This document shows, one piece after another, positions 57,746 through 63,319 of a stretch of DNA of 64,000 bases. Origin of the DNA: Lachnospiraceae bacterium (lineage in GTDB: Bacteria > Bacillota > Clostridia > Lachnospirales > Lachnospiraceae); assembly GCA_902362715.1 (NCBI GenBank), contig CABIXN010000007.1:82168-146167 (forward strand). The letters run 5' to 3'. Made by a program: the position numbers and the translations under genes. The notes below the pieces were generated by a model that did not search any database, had not been told where the DNA came from, and saw only the letters and a list, made by a program, of their open reading frames with translations. Numbering within the stretch: position 1 is the first letter of the stretch; every line of letters starts with the position of its first letter.

Positions 57746-58144
57746 TTATTCTTTTGGCTGTACTAAATTACTCACATATGGTCTTTTGCCGGAAAGAACT
57801 TCATTATAAAAGTTCTGTTTCCAATCAATATAAGCAACGCTGTCCTCTAGCTCCTTAATGGAAGCCCGCAATGCTTCCTGCTTCTCTGCCAGCATTTCTT
57901 TTCGTGGAATAATCGTGGATTCACCCTGCATACACAGCGCAAGGTATTTTTTCATTTCCTGAATACTCAATCCACATTTTTTAAGACAGGTAAGGTCTTT
58001 GATCCATTTAACATCTTTTTCATCAAAAATCCGGCGATTATTTCCATCTCGTTTAACATTAGGGACTAACCCTTCATTACAATAAAATTTCAAGGTCTGA
58101 TAAGTCATATCCAGCTCTCGGCAGACCTGCATCATTGTATACAC
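57746..58144 (-). CDS. MerR family transcriptional regulator (GTG start)
   Basis: The 132-aa product has an N-terminal MerR HTH (MMQVCRELDMTYQTLKFYCNEGLVPNVKRDGNNRR), a second wing (FDEKDVKWIKDLTCLKKCGLSIQEMKKYL) and a helical dimerisation segment. GTG at 58144 is the start, since AGGAGG lies 9 nt upstream; the frame to 58387 has no site and overlaps the divergent promoter. It is divergent from the flavodoxin operon, whose promoter has a 19-bp spacer, so it probably activates that operon. Confidence 0.88.
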   Translation of the reverse strand: MYTMMQVCRELDMTYQTLKFYCNEGLVPNVKRDGNNRRIFDEKDVKWIKDLTCLKKCGLSIQEMKKYLALCMQGESTIIPRKEMLAEKQEALRASIKELEDSVAYIDWKQNFYNEVLSGKRPYVSNLVQPKE

Positions 58145-58203
58145 TATAAAAATCCTCCTGTGTTGTTCATAAAAAAATTCACAAACTTTTTTTAAAAAAC
58201 CTA

Positions 58204-58234
58204 TTGACCGATAGTTACTACCGCAAATTATAAT
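58204..58234 (+). promoter_or_regulatory. MerR-type promoter (19-bp spacer) of the flavodoxin operon
   Basis: The -35 TTGACC (58204-58209), a 19-bp spacer and -10 TATAAT (58229-58234) are present. The spacer contains the dyad TAGT-T-ACTA (within GATAGTTACTACC). An overlong spacer with a central dyad is the hallmark of promoters activated by MerR proteins through DNA untwisting. Confidence 0.72.
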
Positions 58235-58314
58235 CGGTTGTATCAAACGGTTGAAGCAATCGTATTGTAGCGTAGAAACACTGAATTTGCAAGCAGTCAA
58301 GGAGGTAATTGCAA

Positions 58315-58932
58315 ATGAAAGTATTACTTGTAAATGGCAGTTCCAGAAAAAATGGATGCACGTATACAGCCTTAAATGAAGCAGCAAGGGCTTTAAATGA
58401 AGAAGACATTGAAACGGAAATCATCTATATCGGCAATGAGGCCCTGCCGGACTGTATTGCCTGCCACAAATGCCGAGAAATCGGCCGTTGTATTTTCCAT
58501 GATAATGTGAATGAATTTGTAGAAAAAGCAAAATCCGCAGACGGCTTTATTTTCGGTTCTCCGGTTTATTACGCACATCCCAGCGGGAGACTTTTAACAT
58601 TTATGGATAGAGCATTTTATTCTGGCAGTGCAGCGTTTCGTTTTAAACCTGCCGCCGCGGTACTCTCGGCAAGACGCGCTGGAACAACAGCTTCTATGGA
58701 TGTTATCAACAAATATTTTACAATCAGCTCCATGCCTGTAATCTCATCTACCTATTGGAATCAGGTTTATGGTGCACAGCCGGAACAGATTTCAAAGGAT
58801 AAGGAGGGGCTTATGACGATGTATAACATCGGTAAAAATATGGCATGGGTGCTGAATTGTCTAGAGCTTGGAAAAGAACACGGACTGACACATCCCGAAA
58901 ACGAAAAAGTCTTAACAAATTTTATTCAATAA
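58315..58932 (+). CDS. Flavodoxin-fold NAD(P)H-dependent oxidoreductase
   Basis: This is a 205-aa cytoplasmic FMN reductase-like protein. It has MKVLLVNGSSRKNGCTYTAL (FMN phosphate loop), a Cys cluster CIACHKCREIGRCIF (Cys47, 50, 53, 59) and FGSPVYYAHPSGRLLTFMDR. The ATG at 58315 has AAGGAGG 9 nt upstream. It is first in an operon under a MerR-type promoter, followed by two extracytoplasmic flavodoxins and a DUF4405 membrane protein. It may feed electrons to that system or act on quinones; this is inference. Confidence 0.9.
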   Translation: MKVLLVNGSSRKNGCTYTALNEAARALNEEDIETEIIYIGNEALPDCIACHKCREIGRCIFHDNVNEFVEKAKSADGFIFGSPVYYAHPSGRLLTFMDRAFYSGSAAFRFKPAAAVLSARRAGTTASMDVINKYFTISSMPVISSTYWNQVYGAQPEQISKDKEGLMTMYNIGKNMAWVLNCLELGKEHGLTHPENEKVLTNFIQ

Positions 58933-58948
58933 GTGATTGGAGGTTACA

Positions 58949-59002
58949 ATGAACAAATTCAGCCGCAATGAGATTTACGATATTCTCAATGAAGCATGTT
59001 AA
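58949..59002 (+). CDS. 17-codon ORF with a strong ribosome site
   Basis: GGAGG lies 5 nt before the ATG. The peptide reads MNKFSRNEIYDILNEAC and then TAA. It begins 16 nt after the flavodoxin-family gene. It looks like the true start of a deleted gene, or less likely a leader or small peptide. Its composition is plausible coding sequence (basic-acidic helix). Function unknown. Confidence 0.4.
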   Translation: MNKFSRNEIYDILNEAC

Positions 59003-59052
59003 TTTTTATCAAAATCAAAATAAGTTAAAATAATGAAGGTGAGGAAATCAAA

Positions 59053-59727
59053 ATGTTTAAAAAAATTCTTGGTCTGATGATGACCGCAATTATGTTCTTT
59101 GCTCTTGCCGCCTGTGGACAGGCACCCGCACAAAACAGTGACACCCAGGCTTCTTCTGATTCTGCTGTCATCAGTGAATCTTCTGAAACAGAGCCGTCTA
59201 AAACAGAAACGTCCACTCCCGCTGAGGGAGAACAAACAGAATCCGCAGACAGCAAAACGCTGGTGGTTTATTTCTCCTGGTCAGGTAACACCGAAGAAAT
59301 GGCTTCCTATATCGCAGAACAGACAAACGGTGATTTGTTAGAGATTGAACCGGAAACAGCTTATCCTGCCGACTACAATGAAACGGGCGATATTGCAAAG
59401 GTTGAGCGTGACGAAAATGCCCGGCCGGAAATTGCAAATCTCCCATCTTCTGTTGATGAGTATGATACAATTCTAGTGGGCTATCCCATCTGGTGGCATA
59501 CAGCTCCTATGATTATCGGTACTTTTTTAGAGAACTATGATTTGTCCGGAAAAGAAGTTTATCCATTTACCCAGTCAGCTTCCATGGACACCGAACAGTT
59601 CAATCAGTCTATTGAATTTGTCCGCGAGGTTTCTAAAGGAGCAGCGGTTCACGACGGATTGTTTGAAAGACCGTCTGATACCGGCACGATTGATACTTAT
59701 CTTTCTGAAAACGGTCTCATAAAATAA
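59053..59727 (+). CDS. Extracytoplasmic flavodoxin lipoprotein
   Basis: The 224-aa product has a lipoprotein signal ending in the lipobox ALAAC (Cys21), a Ser/Thr/Glu-rich tether (about 22-67) and a flavodoxin domain: LVVYFSWSGNTEEMASYI (phosphate-binding loop, about 70-87), VGYPIWWHTAPMIIGTFLENYDLSGK and a C-terminal helix. An FMN-carrying electron carrier tethered outside the membrane is expected. It pairs with a second such lipoprotein and a DUF4405 protein in one operon. Confidence 0.9.
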   Translation: MFKKILGLMMTAIMFFALAACGQAPAQNSDTQASSDSAVISESSETEPSKTETSTPAEGEQTESADSKTLVVYFSWSGNTEEMASYIAEQTNGDLLEIEPETAYPADYNETGDIAKVERDENARPEIANLPSSVDEYDTILVGYPIWWHTAPMIIGTFLENYDLSGKEVYPFTQSASMDTEQFNQSIEFVREVSKGAAVHDGLFERPSDTGTIDTYLSENGLIK

Positions 59728-59760
59728 AGCTCACAAAATAAAAATAAGGAGAATATCATT

Positions 59761-60498
59761 ATGAAAAAATTACTTTCACTTTTAACCGTATGCGCCCTGG
59801 GAATCACTATTATTTTTTCTCTGACCGCTTGTTCAGAAAAAACGCCGGTTTCATCTGAAAATGATGTTACGACGCCTTCCACAGATACCGGTAATTCCAC
59901 GAATGAAAACCAGTCCGCAGGCAATTCCAATCCTGCTGACGACACATCCGATTCAACAAATGAGACTGCCAATGCACTTGTTGTTTATTTTTCTATTCCC
60001 GACGACCGTGATAACAGTTATGTTGAAGTGGATGGTGCGCGCCTGGGTAATACCCAATATATGGCACAGGTTATTCAGGAAAACACAGGTGCGGATATTT
60101 TCCGCATTCAGCCTGTTACCCCGTATCCTACCGACCACGAAGAACTCTTAGAGGCGGCACAGGATGAAATCCGCACAAATGCCCGCCCTGAAATTAGCGG
60201 CACAATCGAGAACTTTGATTCCTACGATGTGGTCTTTGTGGGTTATCCCAACTGGAATGCAGATATGCCGTACATTATGTATTCCTTTTTTGAAAGCTAT
60301 GACTTTTCCGGCAAAACTATCGTTCCGTTTATGACACATGGCGGCAGTGGTTTTTCGGGAACACCGGAAACAATTGCGCAGCTGGAGCCTGAAGCGGCCA
60401 TGTTGGAAGGAAAAGCCATTTCAAGAAGCAGTATCGAGGATGCCCGACAAGAAATTATTGATTGGATTGACGAGATCGGTCTGCTGAAAAAGAACTGA
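59761..60498 (+). CDS. Second extracytoplasmic flavodoxin lipoprotein
   Basis: The 245-aa product has a signal peptide with lipobox SLTAC (Cys24), an Asn/Ser/Thr-rich tether (about 25-72) and a flavodoxin domain. The phosphate loop differs from its neighbour: VVYFSIPDDRDNSYVEVDGA is followed by LGNTQYMA, an insertion also seen in some flavodoxin_4-like proteins. VGYPNWNADMPYIMYSFFESYDFSGK follows. It is 33 nt after the first lipoprotein gene and 10 nt before the DUF4405 gene. Confidence 0.9.
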   Translation: MKKLLSLLTVCALGITIIFSLTACSEKTPVSSENDVTTPSTDTGNSTNENQSAGNSNPADDTSDSTNETANALVVYFSIPDDRDNSYVEVDGARLGNTQYMAQVIQENTGADIFRIQPVTPYPTDHEELLEAAQDEIRTNARPEISGTIENFDSYDVVFVGYPNWNADMPYIMYSFFESYDFSGKTIVPFMTHGGSGFSGTPETIAQLEPEAAMLEGKAISRSSIEDARQEIIDWIDEIGLLKKN

Positions 60499-60508
60499 GG
60501 CAGGCAGT

Positions 60509-61204
60509 ATGAAATGGACGTCAATTATTAAAATAAGTATTGATGTAGCAATGTATCTATTATTTCTGCTGCTTATGGGGCAATATCTCTTACGAGATGC
60601 GCCACACGAATGGCTGGGGGTTACTGCAGGAATTCTTTTCATTCTGCACAATATATTTAATTACAAATGGTACACGGCTATTTTCAAAGGCAGGTACAAT
60701 GCAATACGCATTGCGCAGACAGCCGTAAATCTGCTTCTTCTGCTTACTGTATTTGGATGTATGCTTAGTGGGATTTTTTCCTCACAGTATATCTTCTCTG
60801 TGGGAAACGGCGGCACAATAGAGCTTGGAAGATTTCTCCATCTTGTAACAACAGCATGGGCTTTTATCCTTATGTCGGTACATCTTGGACTGCACTGGAC
60901 AAACTTTATAGGAATCGCACAAAAAATTACCATAAATCCCAAAACACAAATCTTTTTTAGGTGGTTTTTCCGACTGATTGTAATCTTCCTTTGTATATAC
61001 GGTGTATATTTGTTCATAGACAGGCGCTTTTGGGAGGAACTATTTCATCTGATTGACTATCAGAAAGAATACGATGAATCCAAAACGTTTTTGATATATC
61101 TTATGGAATCTGTCATTATGTCATCGCTGTTCACTGCGGTAACTTATTATATAAAGAAATTTGCTTTATATAAAAAACAGTCCCATAGAAAGAAAACAGA
61201 TTAA
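60509..61204 (+). CDS. DUF4405-type integral membrane protein (candidate b-type cytochrome)
   Basis: The 231-aa product has about five or six TM helices. Its His residues sit at helix ends or within helices (FILHNIFNYKWYTAIFKG, FLHLVTTAWAFILMSVHLGLHW), a layout like cytochrome b561 or DUF4405 proteins that bind haem. It is the last gene of the flavodoxin lipoprotein operon (10-nt gap). A transmembrane electron path from cytoplasmic donors to the outer flavodoxins is a reasonable hypothesis; the haem ligands need experimental proof. Confidence 0.78.
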   Translation: MKWTSIIKISIDVAMYLLFLLLMGQYLLRDAPHEWLGVTAGILFILHNIFNYKWYTAIFKGRYNAIRIAQTAVNLLLLLTVFGCMLSGIFSSQYIFSVGNGGTIELGRFLHLVTTAWAFILMSVHLGLHWTNFIGIAQKITINPKTQIFFRWFFRLIVIFLCIYGVYLFIDRRFWEELFHLIDYQKEYDESKTFLIYLMESVIMSSLFTAVTYYIKKFALYKKQSHRKKTD

Positions 61205-61240
61205 ATTGCCCTTGATCATTTGTTAATTTCACGTATATAC

Positions 61241-61290
61241 AAAAAACAGATGCACCTTTTTCATAAAGAAAAATCTGCATCTGTTTTTTT
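61241..61290. terminator. Terminator of the flavodoxin/DUF4405 operon
   Basis: The stem AAAAAACAGATGCA / TGCATCTGTTTTTT (14 bp) has an AT-rich loop with a second small stem. Both arms are identical in sequence to the terminator at 27273-27317. Confidence 0.92.
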
Positions 61291-61354: not shown

Positions 61355-62281
61355 TTACTCTTTGATTAACTCCGGAAGAACAACTGCTCTTTCATATGCG
61401 GCATATTTTTTCCGTTTCTCAGCAATAATATCCTTGCCTTGGGCAGCCTTCATATGGCCTTTCCGGATATTATTATCATGGAGATCCTGTCCCCATTTAC
61501 TCCAGCGGTTTTTAGCCATCTCTTCCTCTGTAAATTCTACCATTAATTCATCATTTACAAGGCTCAGTTTCGCTTTTGTGAGACACTGCGGACAGTAGAC
61601 ACCGTCTTCTCTTATCTCCAGCATATTTCCATGACAGTCCGGACATACGCCTTTTGTGCCTACATAGGATGGTTTTTCACCCTTTTCTTTCATAAGCAGT
61701 GCATCTGCAATATTTTCTCCGAATTTATGCATCCGTGCAATCATCTCATCCTCTAACACAACAGCTGCCACAGACGGAACAAAATCAAAATGAACAGCAT
61801 CCACCAGTGCTTCATATGATCCGCAGAATTCCATAGCTGCCATTTTACAGAAATTCAGTGTAAAGTTGGTCCAGTCTGTTCCTCCAATAGAAAAAGCTGC
61901 CCCGATTTTATTATTTTTATGTACCATGTCACGATAATTTCCACTTGCATGGAGTTTATTTAAAAATGTAATCATAGGACCCGTTGGAAGCAGGTTGTAA
62001 GCAGGACTGGATACAATAATTGCATCTGCCTCACGCATCAGCTGCTCAATAAAATAGAAATGATCCGTACCGTTTTTGTGAACACATCTAAAATCCCAGT
62101 TTCCTTTCAGATGATTCACCATACAGGTCTCACATCCTACACATTTTCTGATCTCAGCTTCCTGAAGACGAACCAGCTGACATTCAGCTCCGCATTTCTC
62201 TTCAATTGCCATAAATGCTTCTTTCATCATAATTTCTGTATTACCGTTTTTTCTGCCGCTGCAGATACCTAAAACCTTCAT
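61355..62281 (-). CDS. Flavodoxin-family oxidoreductase with C-terminal zinc ribbon
   Basis: The 308-aa product has an N-terminal flavodoxin-like domain (MKVLGICSGRKNGNTEIMMK), the Cys cluster RKCVGCETCM (Cys47, 50, 53), SSPAYNLLPTGPMITFLNKLHA, and a C-terminal ribbon CPDCHGNMLEI ... YCPQC. ATG at 62281 has GGAGG 8 nt upstream; the frame to 62296 is not used. It is probably an FMN-dependent reductase of unknown substrate. A LysR gene lies 108 bp upstream in the same orientation. Confidence 0.88.
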   Translation of the reverse strand: MKVLGICSGRKNGNTEIMMKEAFMAIEEKCGAECQLVRLQEAEIRKCVGCETCMVNHLKGNWDFRCVHKNGTDHFYFIEQLMREADAIIVSSPAYNLLPTGPMITFLNKLHASGNYRDMVHKNNKIGAAFSIGGTDWTNFTLNFCKMAAMEFCGSYEALVDAVHFDFVPSVAAVVLEDEMIARMHKFGENIADALLMKEKGEKPSYVGTKGVCPDCHGNMLEIREDGVYCPQCLTKAKLSLVNDELMVEFTEEEMAKNRWSKWGQDLHDNNIRKGHMKAAQGKDIIAEKRKKYAAYERAVVLPELIKE

Positions 62282-62389
62282 ACCAGTTACCTCCATGTAA
62301 TCATTTTGTATTAATTATAATTGGAAATCAAAAGAGTGTAAAACAATTATTTTCTTTCTATTCACAATAAAAAGGTTGTGTTCTATATC

Positions 62390-63319
62390 CTATAATACAA
62401 CATCGAATTTATTTTTCTGATCTTTCATATGATTTCTCTGATACAACTGCGAAAGCTGAGCCGTCATATGTTCTCCAAATCCATTGACACCTACTATGCT
62501 GATCTGAGCCGGTTCATCCTCCGGCATATAGGCAATGGGATAAAATTTCAAACCACCATACTGGTTTCTGAAAAATTCCCGGAAACCGGTGGCAATTCCC
62601 TTCCCAGCCATAATTTCAATCTCCATACTTTCCCAGGATTTAAAATATTTTACCTTTGGCTCTATCCCAATACTGTGAAAATGACCAAGTATTTTTTTCT
62701 GTGCATCCGCAGAATGAGAATCTTCAAAAATAAAAATCGTTTCCTCTCCCACATCTGCCAGCGACAATTTCTCTCTTGCAGCCAGAGGATGATTTTGGGA
62801 CAGGATAATGGACAGCTGCACCGTTTTCAGCAGACACTGCTGATGACTGATCAGCTCTTTTGGAATCTCTGTAGAATAGGTTACAATTAAATCCGCTTTC
62901 TTTTCTTCGGCAAGCTGCTTTACATACGCCGGATTCCCTGAAACAACCTCAATCTGTATATCCGGATTTTTGCTCCCATACTGAGCCAGAAGGGGCAGCG
63001 TCAAATCTTTTACTGCATCATATTCTAAAATGGCAATCTTCACAAGACATTCCTTCTGCTCCCGCTCCTCCTGAATCAGACGTATCTCTTCATCCATCCG
63101 AAAAAGCAGTTCTTCCCAGAGTTTTCGCATCCTTACCCCTTCCCGGGTTAACATCAGCTGTTTTCTCTGTATACAGAACAAAGGAAAGTTAAGCTCTTGT
63201 TCCAAAGCCTTGATCTGTTTGCTGACTGCCTGCTGGGAAACAAATAATACATCTGCGGCTTTTGTAATACTCTGCTGTCTGGCCGCTTCTATAAAATAAC
63301 GCACCTGTAAAAATGTCAA
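62390..63319 (-). CDS. LysR family transcriptional regulator
   Basis: The 309-aa product has an N-terminal HTH (QQSITKAADVLFVSQQAVSKQIKALEQELN) and an effector domain. The gene lies upstream of the flavodoxin-like reductase and is a candidate regulator of it. The 108-bp gap between them is AT-rich. Confidence 0.93.
   Translation of the reverse strand: MTFLQVRYFIEAARQQSITKAADVLFVSQQAVSKQIKALEQELNFPLFCIQRKQLMLTREGVRMRKLWEELLFRMDEEIRLIQEEREQKECLVKIAILEYDAVKDLTLPLLAQYGSKNPDIQIEVVSGNPAYVKQLAEEKKADLIVTYSTEIPKELISHQQCLLKTVQLSIILSQNHPLAAREKLSLADVGEETIFIFEDSHSADAQKKILGHFHSIGIEPKVKYFKSWESMEIEIMAGKGIATGFREFFRNQYGGLKFYPIAYMPEDEPAQISIVGVNGFGEHMTAQLSQLYQRNHMKDQKNKFDVVL

Follow-up and report, generated by a model that had tools for sequence, protein, structure and literature searches.

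How electrons could be delivered to flavodoxins held outside the cell membrane, and whether these proteins need a covalent bond to keep their flavin mononucleotide (FMN), are the questions raised by a gene cluster of a Lachnospiraceae bacterium. The window analysed here is a stretch of 64,000 nucleotides (positions 82,168 to 146,167 of contig CABIXN010000007.1), in which a complete operon on the plus strand (58315-61204) encodes an FMN_red protein, two Flavodoxin_4 lipoproteins (flavodoxins 1 and 2) and a DUF4405 membrane protein, followed by a terminator, and a MerR gene lies divergently on the minus strand. A previous sequence-only reading had claimed this order of an FMN reductase-like protein, two flavodoxin lipoproteins with lipobox cysteines at positions 21 and 24 and a DUF4405 protein, as well as MerR-type control at the level of both gene and promoter. 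The former is confirmed by the positions of the open reading frames (ORFs) and their Pfam matches, and the latter by a MerR_1 match and a 19-bp promoter spacer.

Taken together, the data point with moderate probability to an inducible, probably horizontally mobile DUF4405/flavodoxin branch that operates independently of flavinylation by ApbE. The kind of pathway is already known from Huang et al. 2024 (PMC11334425), who described a DUF4405 haem b protein beside an ApbE-flavinylated Flavodoxin_4 protein; the novelty here lies in a clade whose members lack the flavinylation motif.

Co-occurrence and the missing flavinylation motif

A genome collection was scanned with a DUF4405 alignment, which yielded 56 loci (L numbers; L049 has no DUF4405 ORF match and its position was taken from the alignment scan). 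Co-occurrence was counted by phmmer matches above 40 bits to either flavodoxin on the same strand within 4 kb, because an earlier flavodoxin profile also caught cyclophilin-like domains (L002 10717-11949 and L004 7965-8561). A flavodoxin ORF was found within 4 kb at 50 of the 56 DUF4405 loci, at least two were present in 28, and 29 have one at most 200 bases upstream; the six loci with no flavodoxin near DUF4405 are L003, L007, L016, L022, L030, and L051. Chance co-occurrence was rejected, since 100 flavodoxin matches fall in 401 kb near DUF4405 compared to 10 in 474 kb further out. Conservation of the cluster outside this strain, which had been proposed as a check on the previous reading, is thus present.

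The target of ApbE is an [S/T]GA[S/T]-like motif, which in flavinylated Flavodoxin_4 proteins is part of an insert separating strand 1 from helix 1 (PMC11334425). A regular expression for this motif finds it in neither window flavodoxin; flavodoxin 2 keeps the insert but reads DNSYVEVDG where others have DATTSAS or alike. Nor does the motif occur in any of the 118 inserts identified in the set of the 120 closest flavodoxin-2 proteins, and the first loops of the 120 nearest flavodoxin-1 proteins revealed no instance either. A tree built from 103 domains unites the 14 motif-less insert domains in one clade with support of 100/98, a grouping that does not show which state is older. At the level of the loci, 62 of 90 domains lie in lipobox-matching ORFs, 19 of them with the motif and 43 without (37 when six SPS variants are left out), and these motif counts are lower bounds because domain cutting missed some motif-bearing ORFs (e.g., L048). 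Judged by their sequences, the 43 motif-less domains are at odds with taking as a general rule what Huang et al. state in their discussion, namely that signs of flavinylation are seen in extracytosolic flavodoxins (PMC11334425). A separate clade carries SPS instead of SAS at the flavinylation site (L007 844-1572, L010 8119-8844, L018 13378-14127, and four others), and these seven insert domains were set apart as ambiguous.

Table 1. Features of the DUF4405/flavodoxin locus in window coordinates.
Feature	Position	Strand	Evidence
MerR-family regulator, NmlR/AdhR-like, Cys53	57746..58144	minus	Pfam MerR_1 51.3 bits
MerR-type promoter TTGACC-N19-TATAAT, imperfect spacer dyad CGATAGT-T-ACTACCG (58209-58223)	58204..58234	+	sequence; conserved in L001, L005
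Cytosolic FMN_red protein	58315..58932	+	PF03358 115.8 bits
17-codon scar ORF MNKFSRNEIYDILNEAC of iron-containing alcohol dehydrogenase gene	58949..59002	+	alignment to L001 6183-7340
Flavodoxin 1, Flavodoxin_4 lipoprotein, lipobox Cys21, short first loop SWSGNT	59053..59727	+	PF12682 106.5 bits
Flavodoxin 2, Flavodoxin_4 lipoprotein, lipobox Cys24, insert DDRDNSYVEVDGARLGNT after strand 1	59761..60498	+	PF12682 98.4 bits; NF005389 189.7 bits (cut-off 172)
DUF4405 six-helix membrane protein, H33/H47/H111/H125 invariant, putative two-haem b cytochrome	60509..61204	+	alignment, AlphaFold2
Intrinsic terminator, hairpin then T run	61241..61289	+	-21.7 kcal/mol, z -7.1

Anchored flavodoxins, membrane protein and cytosolic partner

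Both flavodoxins pass the PF12682 cut-off of 24 bits by a wide distance (Table 1), and the Pfam scores of MerR_1 and FMN_red are likewise above their respective cut-offs. The lipoboxes read FALAAC (Cys21) and SLTAC (Cys24), and each is followed by a Ser/Thr-rich tether. Lipobox calls were made with a simple regular expression, which also matches S-layer-homology (SLH) proteins (one of 62 locus ORFs and three of 91 flavodoxin-1 relatives). By this expression, a lipobox is present in 119 of the 120 flavodoxin-2 proteins ranked closest (a set headed by the window's own protein) and in 91 of the 120 closest flavodoxin-1 proteins, three of these 91 being the falsely matched SLH proteins. The remaining 29 flavodoxin-1 relatives comprise 22 that start with a transmembrane-type helix and seven that look truncated or variant. 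The 22 (P0256, P0287, and 20 alike) represent a third way of anchoring a flavodoxin, by an N-terminal helix, and P0256 has two Flavodoxin_4 stretches. An SLH-anchored build, found in three of the 120 listed flavodoxin-1 relatives, is exemplified by L001 8094-9221, where three SLH domains are fused to a flavodoxin-1 domain next to the gene of lipoprotein flavodoxin 1.

Fusions of the two flavodoxin types are also encountered. More than 330 residues are present in 26 of the 120 closest flavodoxin-2 proteins; among twelve sequences inspected, P0129, P0132, and P0141 are flavodoxin-1/flavodoxin-2 fusions in operon order, and in P0180, P0215, P0227, and P0240 the order is the other way round, the insert type preceding a short-loop domain. 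Two-domain lipoproteins are encoded in L004 and L005 as well. We infer from such arrangements that both flavodoxin types function as a pair. Two further compositions were noted: a lipoprotein-like ORF (L004 4996-6981) with a Flavodoxin_4 domain, BspA-type leucine-rich repeats and a second Flavodoxin_4 domain, and a lipoprotein (L001 16233-17708) in which Flavodoxin_4 is fused to an aldo/keto reductase domain, so that this normally NAD(P)H-using domain apparently lies outside the cell.

The DUF4405 protein of the window scores 26.3 bits against a Pfam cut-off of 26.7 bits, i.e., 0.4 bits short, and PF14358 matches are frequent in its relatives at ~59% identity and below. The four histidines listed in Table 1 are invariant in 29 aligned sequences (the window protein and 28 of 120 listed relatives), H129 being nearly so. 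The AlphaFold2 model has six long helices with a mean predicted local distance difference test score of 83 and a predicted template modelling score of 0.82, and each of the helices 31-50 and 101-128 bears two of the invariant histidines at a spacing of 14 residues. Because positive residues are found at 51-64, 129-143, and the C-terminus, both chain ends are predicted to be inside the cell, H33/H111 being the putative ligands of the outer haem and H47/H125 those of the inner one. In the model, the conserved stretch R172-D189 would face outward and could dock the flavodoxins. The four invariant histidines are as expected for a two-haem b cytochrome; Huang et al. purified one DUF4405 protein with haem b and describe a build of six helices that has four histidines at its centre (PMC11334425). 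The previous suggestion of a route from a b-type cytochrome to outside flavodoxins is supported as regards such a cytochrome beside anchored flavodoxins, by the comparison of relatives and by the published haem-b protein; the kind of pathway itself had already been described. Among solved structures, the VIA-align list for the DUF4405 model mostly contains unrelated helical bundles and channels plus two cytochromes (1kqf_C and 7zxy_A), all in a range that possibly means a common arrangement only, and a profile search of PDB sequences gave nothing at E values up to 1.

Gaps of 33 and 10 bases 3' of flavodoxins 1 and 2, respectively, make one transcript likely, in which both flavodoxin genes and the DUF4405 gene are cotranscribed. 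Upstream of them, the FMN_red gene starts at ATG 58315. Its protein carries a Cys47-x2-Cys50-x2-Cys53-x5-Cys59 spacing as read in the sequence, a compact four-cysteine motif that we take to resemble those of iron-sulfur flavoproteins (Isf), and its sole solved relative retrieved is 7d38. The ends of the short scar ORF that follows match both ends of the intact iron alcohol dehydrogenase gene in L001, with deletion breakpoints at 58959/58963 in the window against 6205/7301 in L001; by this alignment, the scar is the remnant of an internal deletion in an iron-containing alcohol dehydrogenase gene. In L001, the FMN_red gene lacks its middle; the window and L001 alike retain the genes for the outside and membrane proteins. 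Because the L001 copy is truncated, FMN_red would not be strictly required, at least in L001, which has more FMN_red genes near the operon (e.g., L001 15652-16230). In L016 (2142-3513) and L030 (473-1907), FMN_red lies 65 and 8 bases from DUF4405, respectively, with no flavodoxin within 4 kb, a pairing that hints at a direct donor role.

Adjoining the operon but separate from it, the minus strand encodes a further FMN_red protein, whose tail is rich in cysteines, and a LysR-type regulator (61355-62296 and 62390-63319). Rfam and transfer RNA scans of the 64-kb window gave no matches.

Regulation and probable transfer of the operon

The MerR gene most probably starts at GTG 58144, in view of a ribosome-binding site and a 132-residue relative in L001, to which the protein is 95.5% identical. 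The closest solved structures are 5d90, 5d8c, and 5e01 of HI_0186, with Cys53 aligned to the cysteine of LQCLKNTGMS. By its position, Cys53 is taken to be the conserved cysteine (Cys54/Cys52) typical of the NmlR clade (PMC4776306). Since the protein does not reach the NCBIfam NmlR equivalog cut-off (66.1 bits vs. 175 bits), we name it NmlR-like only. The 19-bp promoter spacer is inside the range of 19-20 bp for NmlR/AdhR-type promoters (PMC9909328). The pattern TTGAC-N20-TATAAT has a single exact match in the 64 kb (58204-58234); with one mismatch allowed there are three matches compared to a mean of 1.8 in shuffles, a count that alone is not beyond chance. The same 32-base promoter pattern is, however, also present in L001 and L005, where it precedes the corresponding genes; these are the only loci with a MerR relative above 200 bits, and none of 76 other loci has the pattern. 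An iron alcohol dehydrogenase is encoded in the related operon of L001, and an aldo/keto reductase in that of L005. Because the MerR protein lies near NmlR/AdhR, carbonyl or thiol-reactive compounds would be likelier signals than quinones; of the earlier view on induction, the inducible MerR-type system is retained, whereas the quinone-like signal would rank behind these compounds.

The relationships of the host genomes (G numbers) bear on the origin of the operon. The window's DNA polymerase I shares at most 66% identity with that of G023, G037, and G047, which are behind Lachnospiraceae-type loci, and 46% with that of G001. Among the operon proteins, identity to the G001 counterpart is 77% for DUF4405, 81% for either flavodoxin and 95% for MerR, with aligned DNA at 81-90%. 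Misbinning of the L001 contig was considered and rejected, given that identity of its sigma factor gene (L001 4264-5031) amounts to 84-89% with G055, G057, G058, and G059 from the same family, compared to 45-53% with the top matches of those Lachnospiraceae genomes that were searched. Twelve other genomes of that family gave one DUF4405 match, at 33% identity. In the family of G023, a DUF4405 match at 1e-20 is present in 74 of 397 genomes, a set that does not include the window's own species; among full-length matches the highest identity is 45%. The operon is probably mobile because it is common to the window and a distant Clostridia genome, and it has probably moved between distant bacteria.

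Proposed electron route, alternatives and known systems

In the route proposed for this branch, the NmlR-like MerR protein would control the promoter of the FMN_red-flavodoxin-DUF4405 operon, and the DUF4405 protein, with two b haems, would span the membrane, be supplied with electrons by either the cytosol or a pool in the membrane, and reduce the lipid-anchored flavodoxins outside. These would hold FMN non-covalently and work as a pair; in one relative, the S-layer-anchored copy may bring electrons into the wall. The end use, which is the least certain step, might be the reduction of outside electrophiles under carbonyl/thiol stress. A more far-reaching form is offered only tentatively: a non-covalent flavodoxin wire leading from a two-haem cytochrome to lipid-anchored flavodoxins with exchangeable FMN and no ApbE, continued by S-layer copies through the wall in some relatives, induced by carbonyl/thiol stress and moving between distant Clostridia.

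The same locus could be an ordinary flavinylated system of the published type, in which an ApbE encoded at a distance in the host attaches FMN at an unrecognised site. Distant apbE genes are indeed common, as ApbE matched in 44 of 50 genomes with DUF4405 loci but within only 7 of the 56 loci; the genome count took in 50 of the 56 loci, and most of the genomes are draft or metagenome assemblies for which completeness is not given. One ApbE query gave no ORF match in the window at an E value of 1e-3. All 14 genomes with the motif in the locus have ApbE, and all six without ApbE have no motif. The lack of the motif in the window flavodoxins and in the 118 inserts speaks against flavinylation at such a site, as do two genomes of the window's clade, G001 and G004, with no ApbE or FMN_bind match, and we consider this alternative distinctly unlikely. 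Also unlikely, though ranking above it, is the possibility that the lipoproteins are enzymes, namely outside quinone, nitro, or azo reductases fed by DUF4405 with no relay. The Flavodoxin_4 fold is common to reductases, in line with the weak FMN_red and Flavodoxin_2 matches that Pfam gives for the two flavodoxins, and the regulator suggests a detoxification role; however, the paired and fused flavodoxins and the S-layer-anchored copy resemble a chain more. An MsrPQ-like repair system, in which a cytosolic flavin enzyme feeds membrane haems and these an outside repair protein with flavodoxins as adaptors, seems very improbable. It draws on the likening of DUF4405 to MsrQ by Huang et al. (PMC11334425), on the reduction of E. 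coli MsrQ by Fre (PMC11031084), and on the FMN_red genes next to DUF4405 in L016 and L030. On the other hand, no methionine sulfoxide reductase or disulfide protein was found among 20 neighbour proteins scanned (L001, L002, L004, L005, L006, and L008), and FMN_red is truncated in L001.

Several results count against the ApbE-independent branch that we prefer. The truncation in L001 breaks the obvious inside donor there. Four of the six genomes in the window's branch (G002, G005, G026, and G029) do have ApbE, and motif and ApbE show no significant association (p 0.17). A Foldseek search with the DUF4405 model returned no match at E 0.001 and is uninformative, also as regards a fold shared with the two-haem b cytochromes FdnI and cytochrome b6. 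Moreover, ferrochelatase was matched in just 3 of 50 host genomes, leaving 47 with no match, and haem would therefore come from outside or by another route. In the same 50 genomes, none exceeds the cut-off of 500 bits of the AhbD model, long matches of 324-374 bits being found in G001, G008, G026, and G029, and UbiA is above its cut-off in nine, G001 included.

Covalent flavinylation has been suggested to stop the loss of flavin outside the cell (PMC11334425), and exported motif-less flavodoxins make that idea testable: either FMN is held outside by other than a covalent bond, or exchangeable flavin is used. The natural two-domain flavodoxin fusions would be convenient for purification. If the proposed branch is real, it would provide gut Clostridia with an inducible path by which electrons reach the surface. 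In open-licence PubMed Central full text, the term extracytosolic flavodoxin was found in Huang et al. (PMC11334425) only, DUF4405 was found in eight papers, and no text was found that joins flavodoxin, lipoprotein, Lachnospiraceae, and cytochrome.

The locus shares with the system of Huang et al. a DUF4405 protein with four histidines, a Flavodoxin_4 partner, occurrence in Firmicutes and proposed extracytosolic electron transfer; it differs in the absence of a flavinylation motif, in that no apbE was found in the window, and in the presence of two lipoprotein flavodoxins, FMN_red, and NmlR-like control. As in the MsrQ/Fre system (PMC11031084), a membrane haem protein would pass electrons outward from a cytosolic flavin reductase, a donor suggested here by gene order only; the acceptor of MsrQ is the molybdoenzyme MsrP, whereas the likely acceptors here are flavodoxins. 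Listeria, with its flavin-based extracellular electron transfer through PplA and FmnB (PMC9973259), also places a flavoprotein outside a Gram-positive membrane, but PplA is flavinylated by FmnB and the other membrane parts are different. Neither window flavodoxin is PplA by NCBIfam, flavodoxin 1 scoring 13.1 bits against a cut-off of 325 bits. Finally, the regulator resembles the NmlR/AdhR carbonyl-stress regulators (PMC4776306 and PMC9909328) in its MerR type, its conserved cysteine, its long-spacer promoter, and the alcohol dehydrogenase or aldo/keto reductase genes of related operons, and is set apart from them by its score below the equivalog cut-off and by the outside flavodoxin set that it would control.

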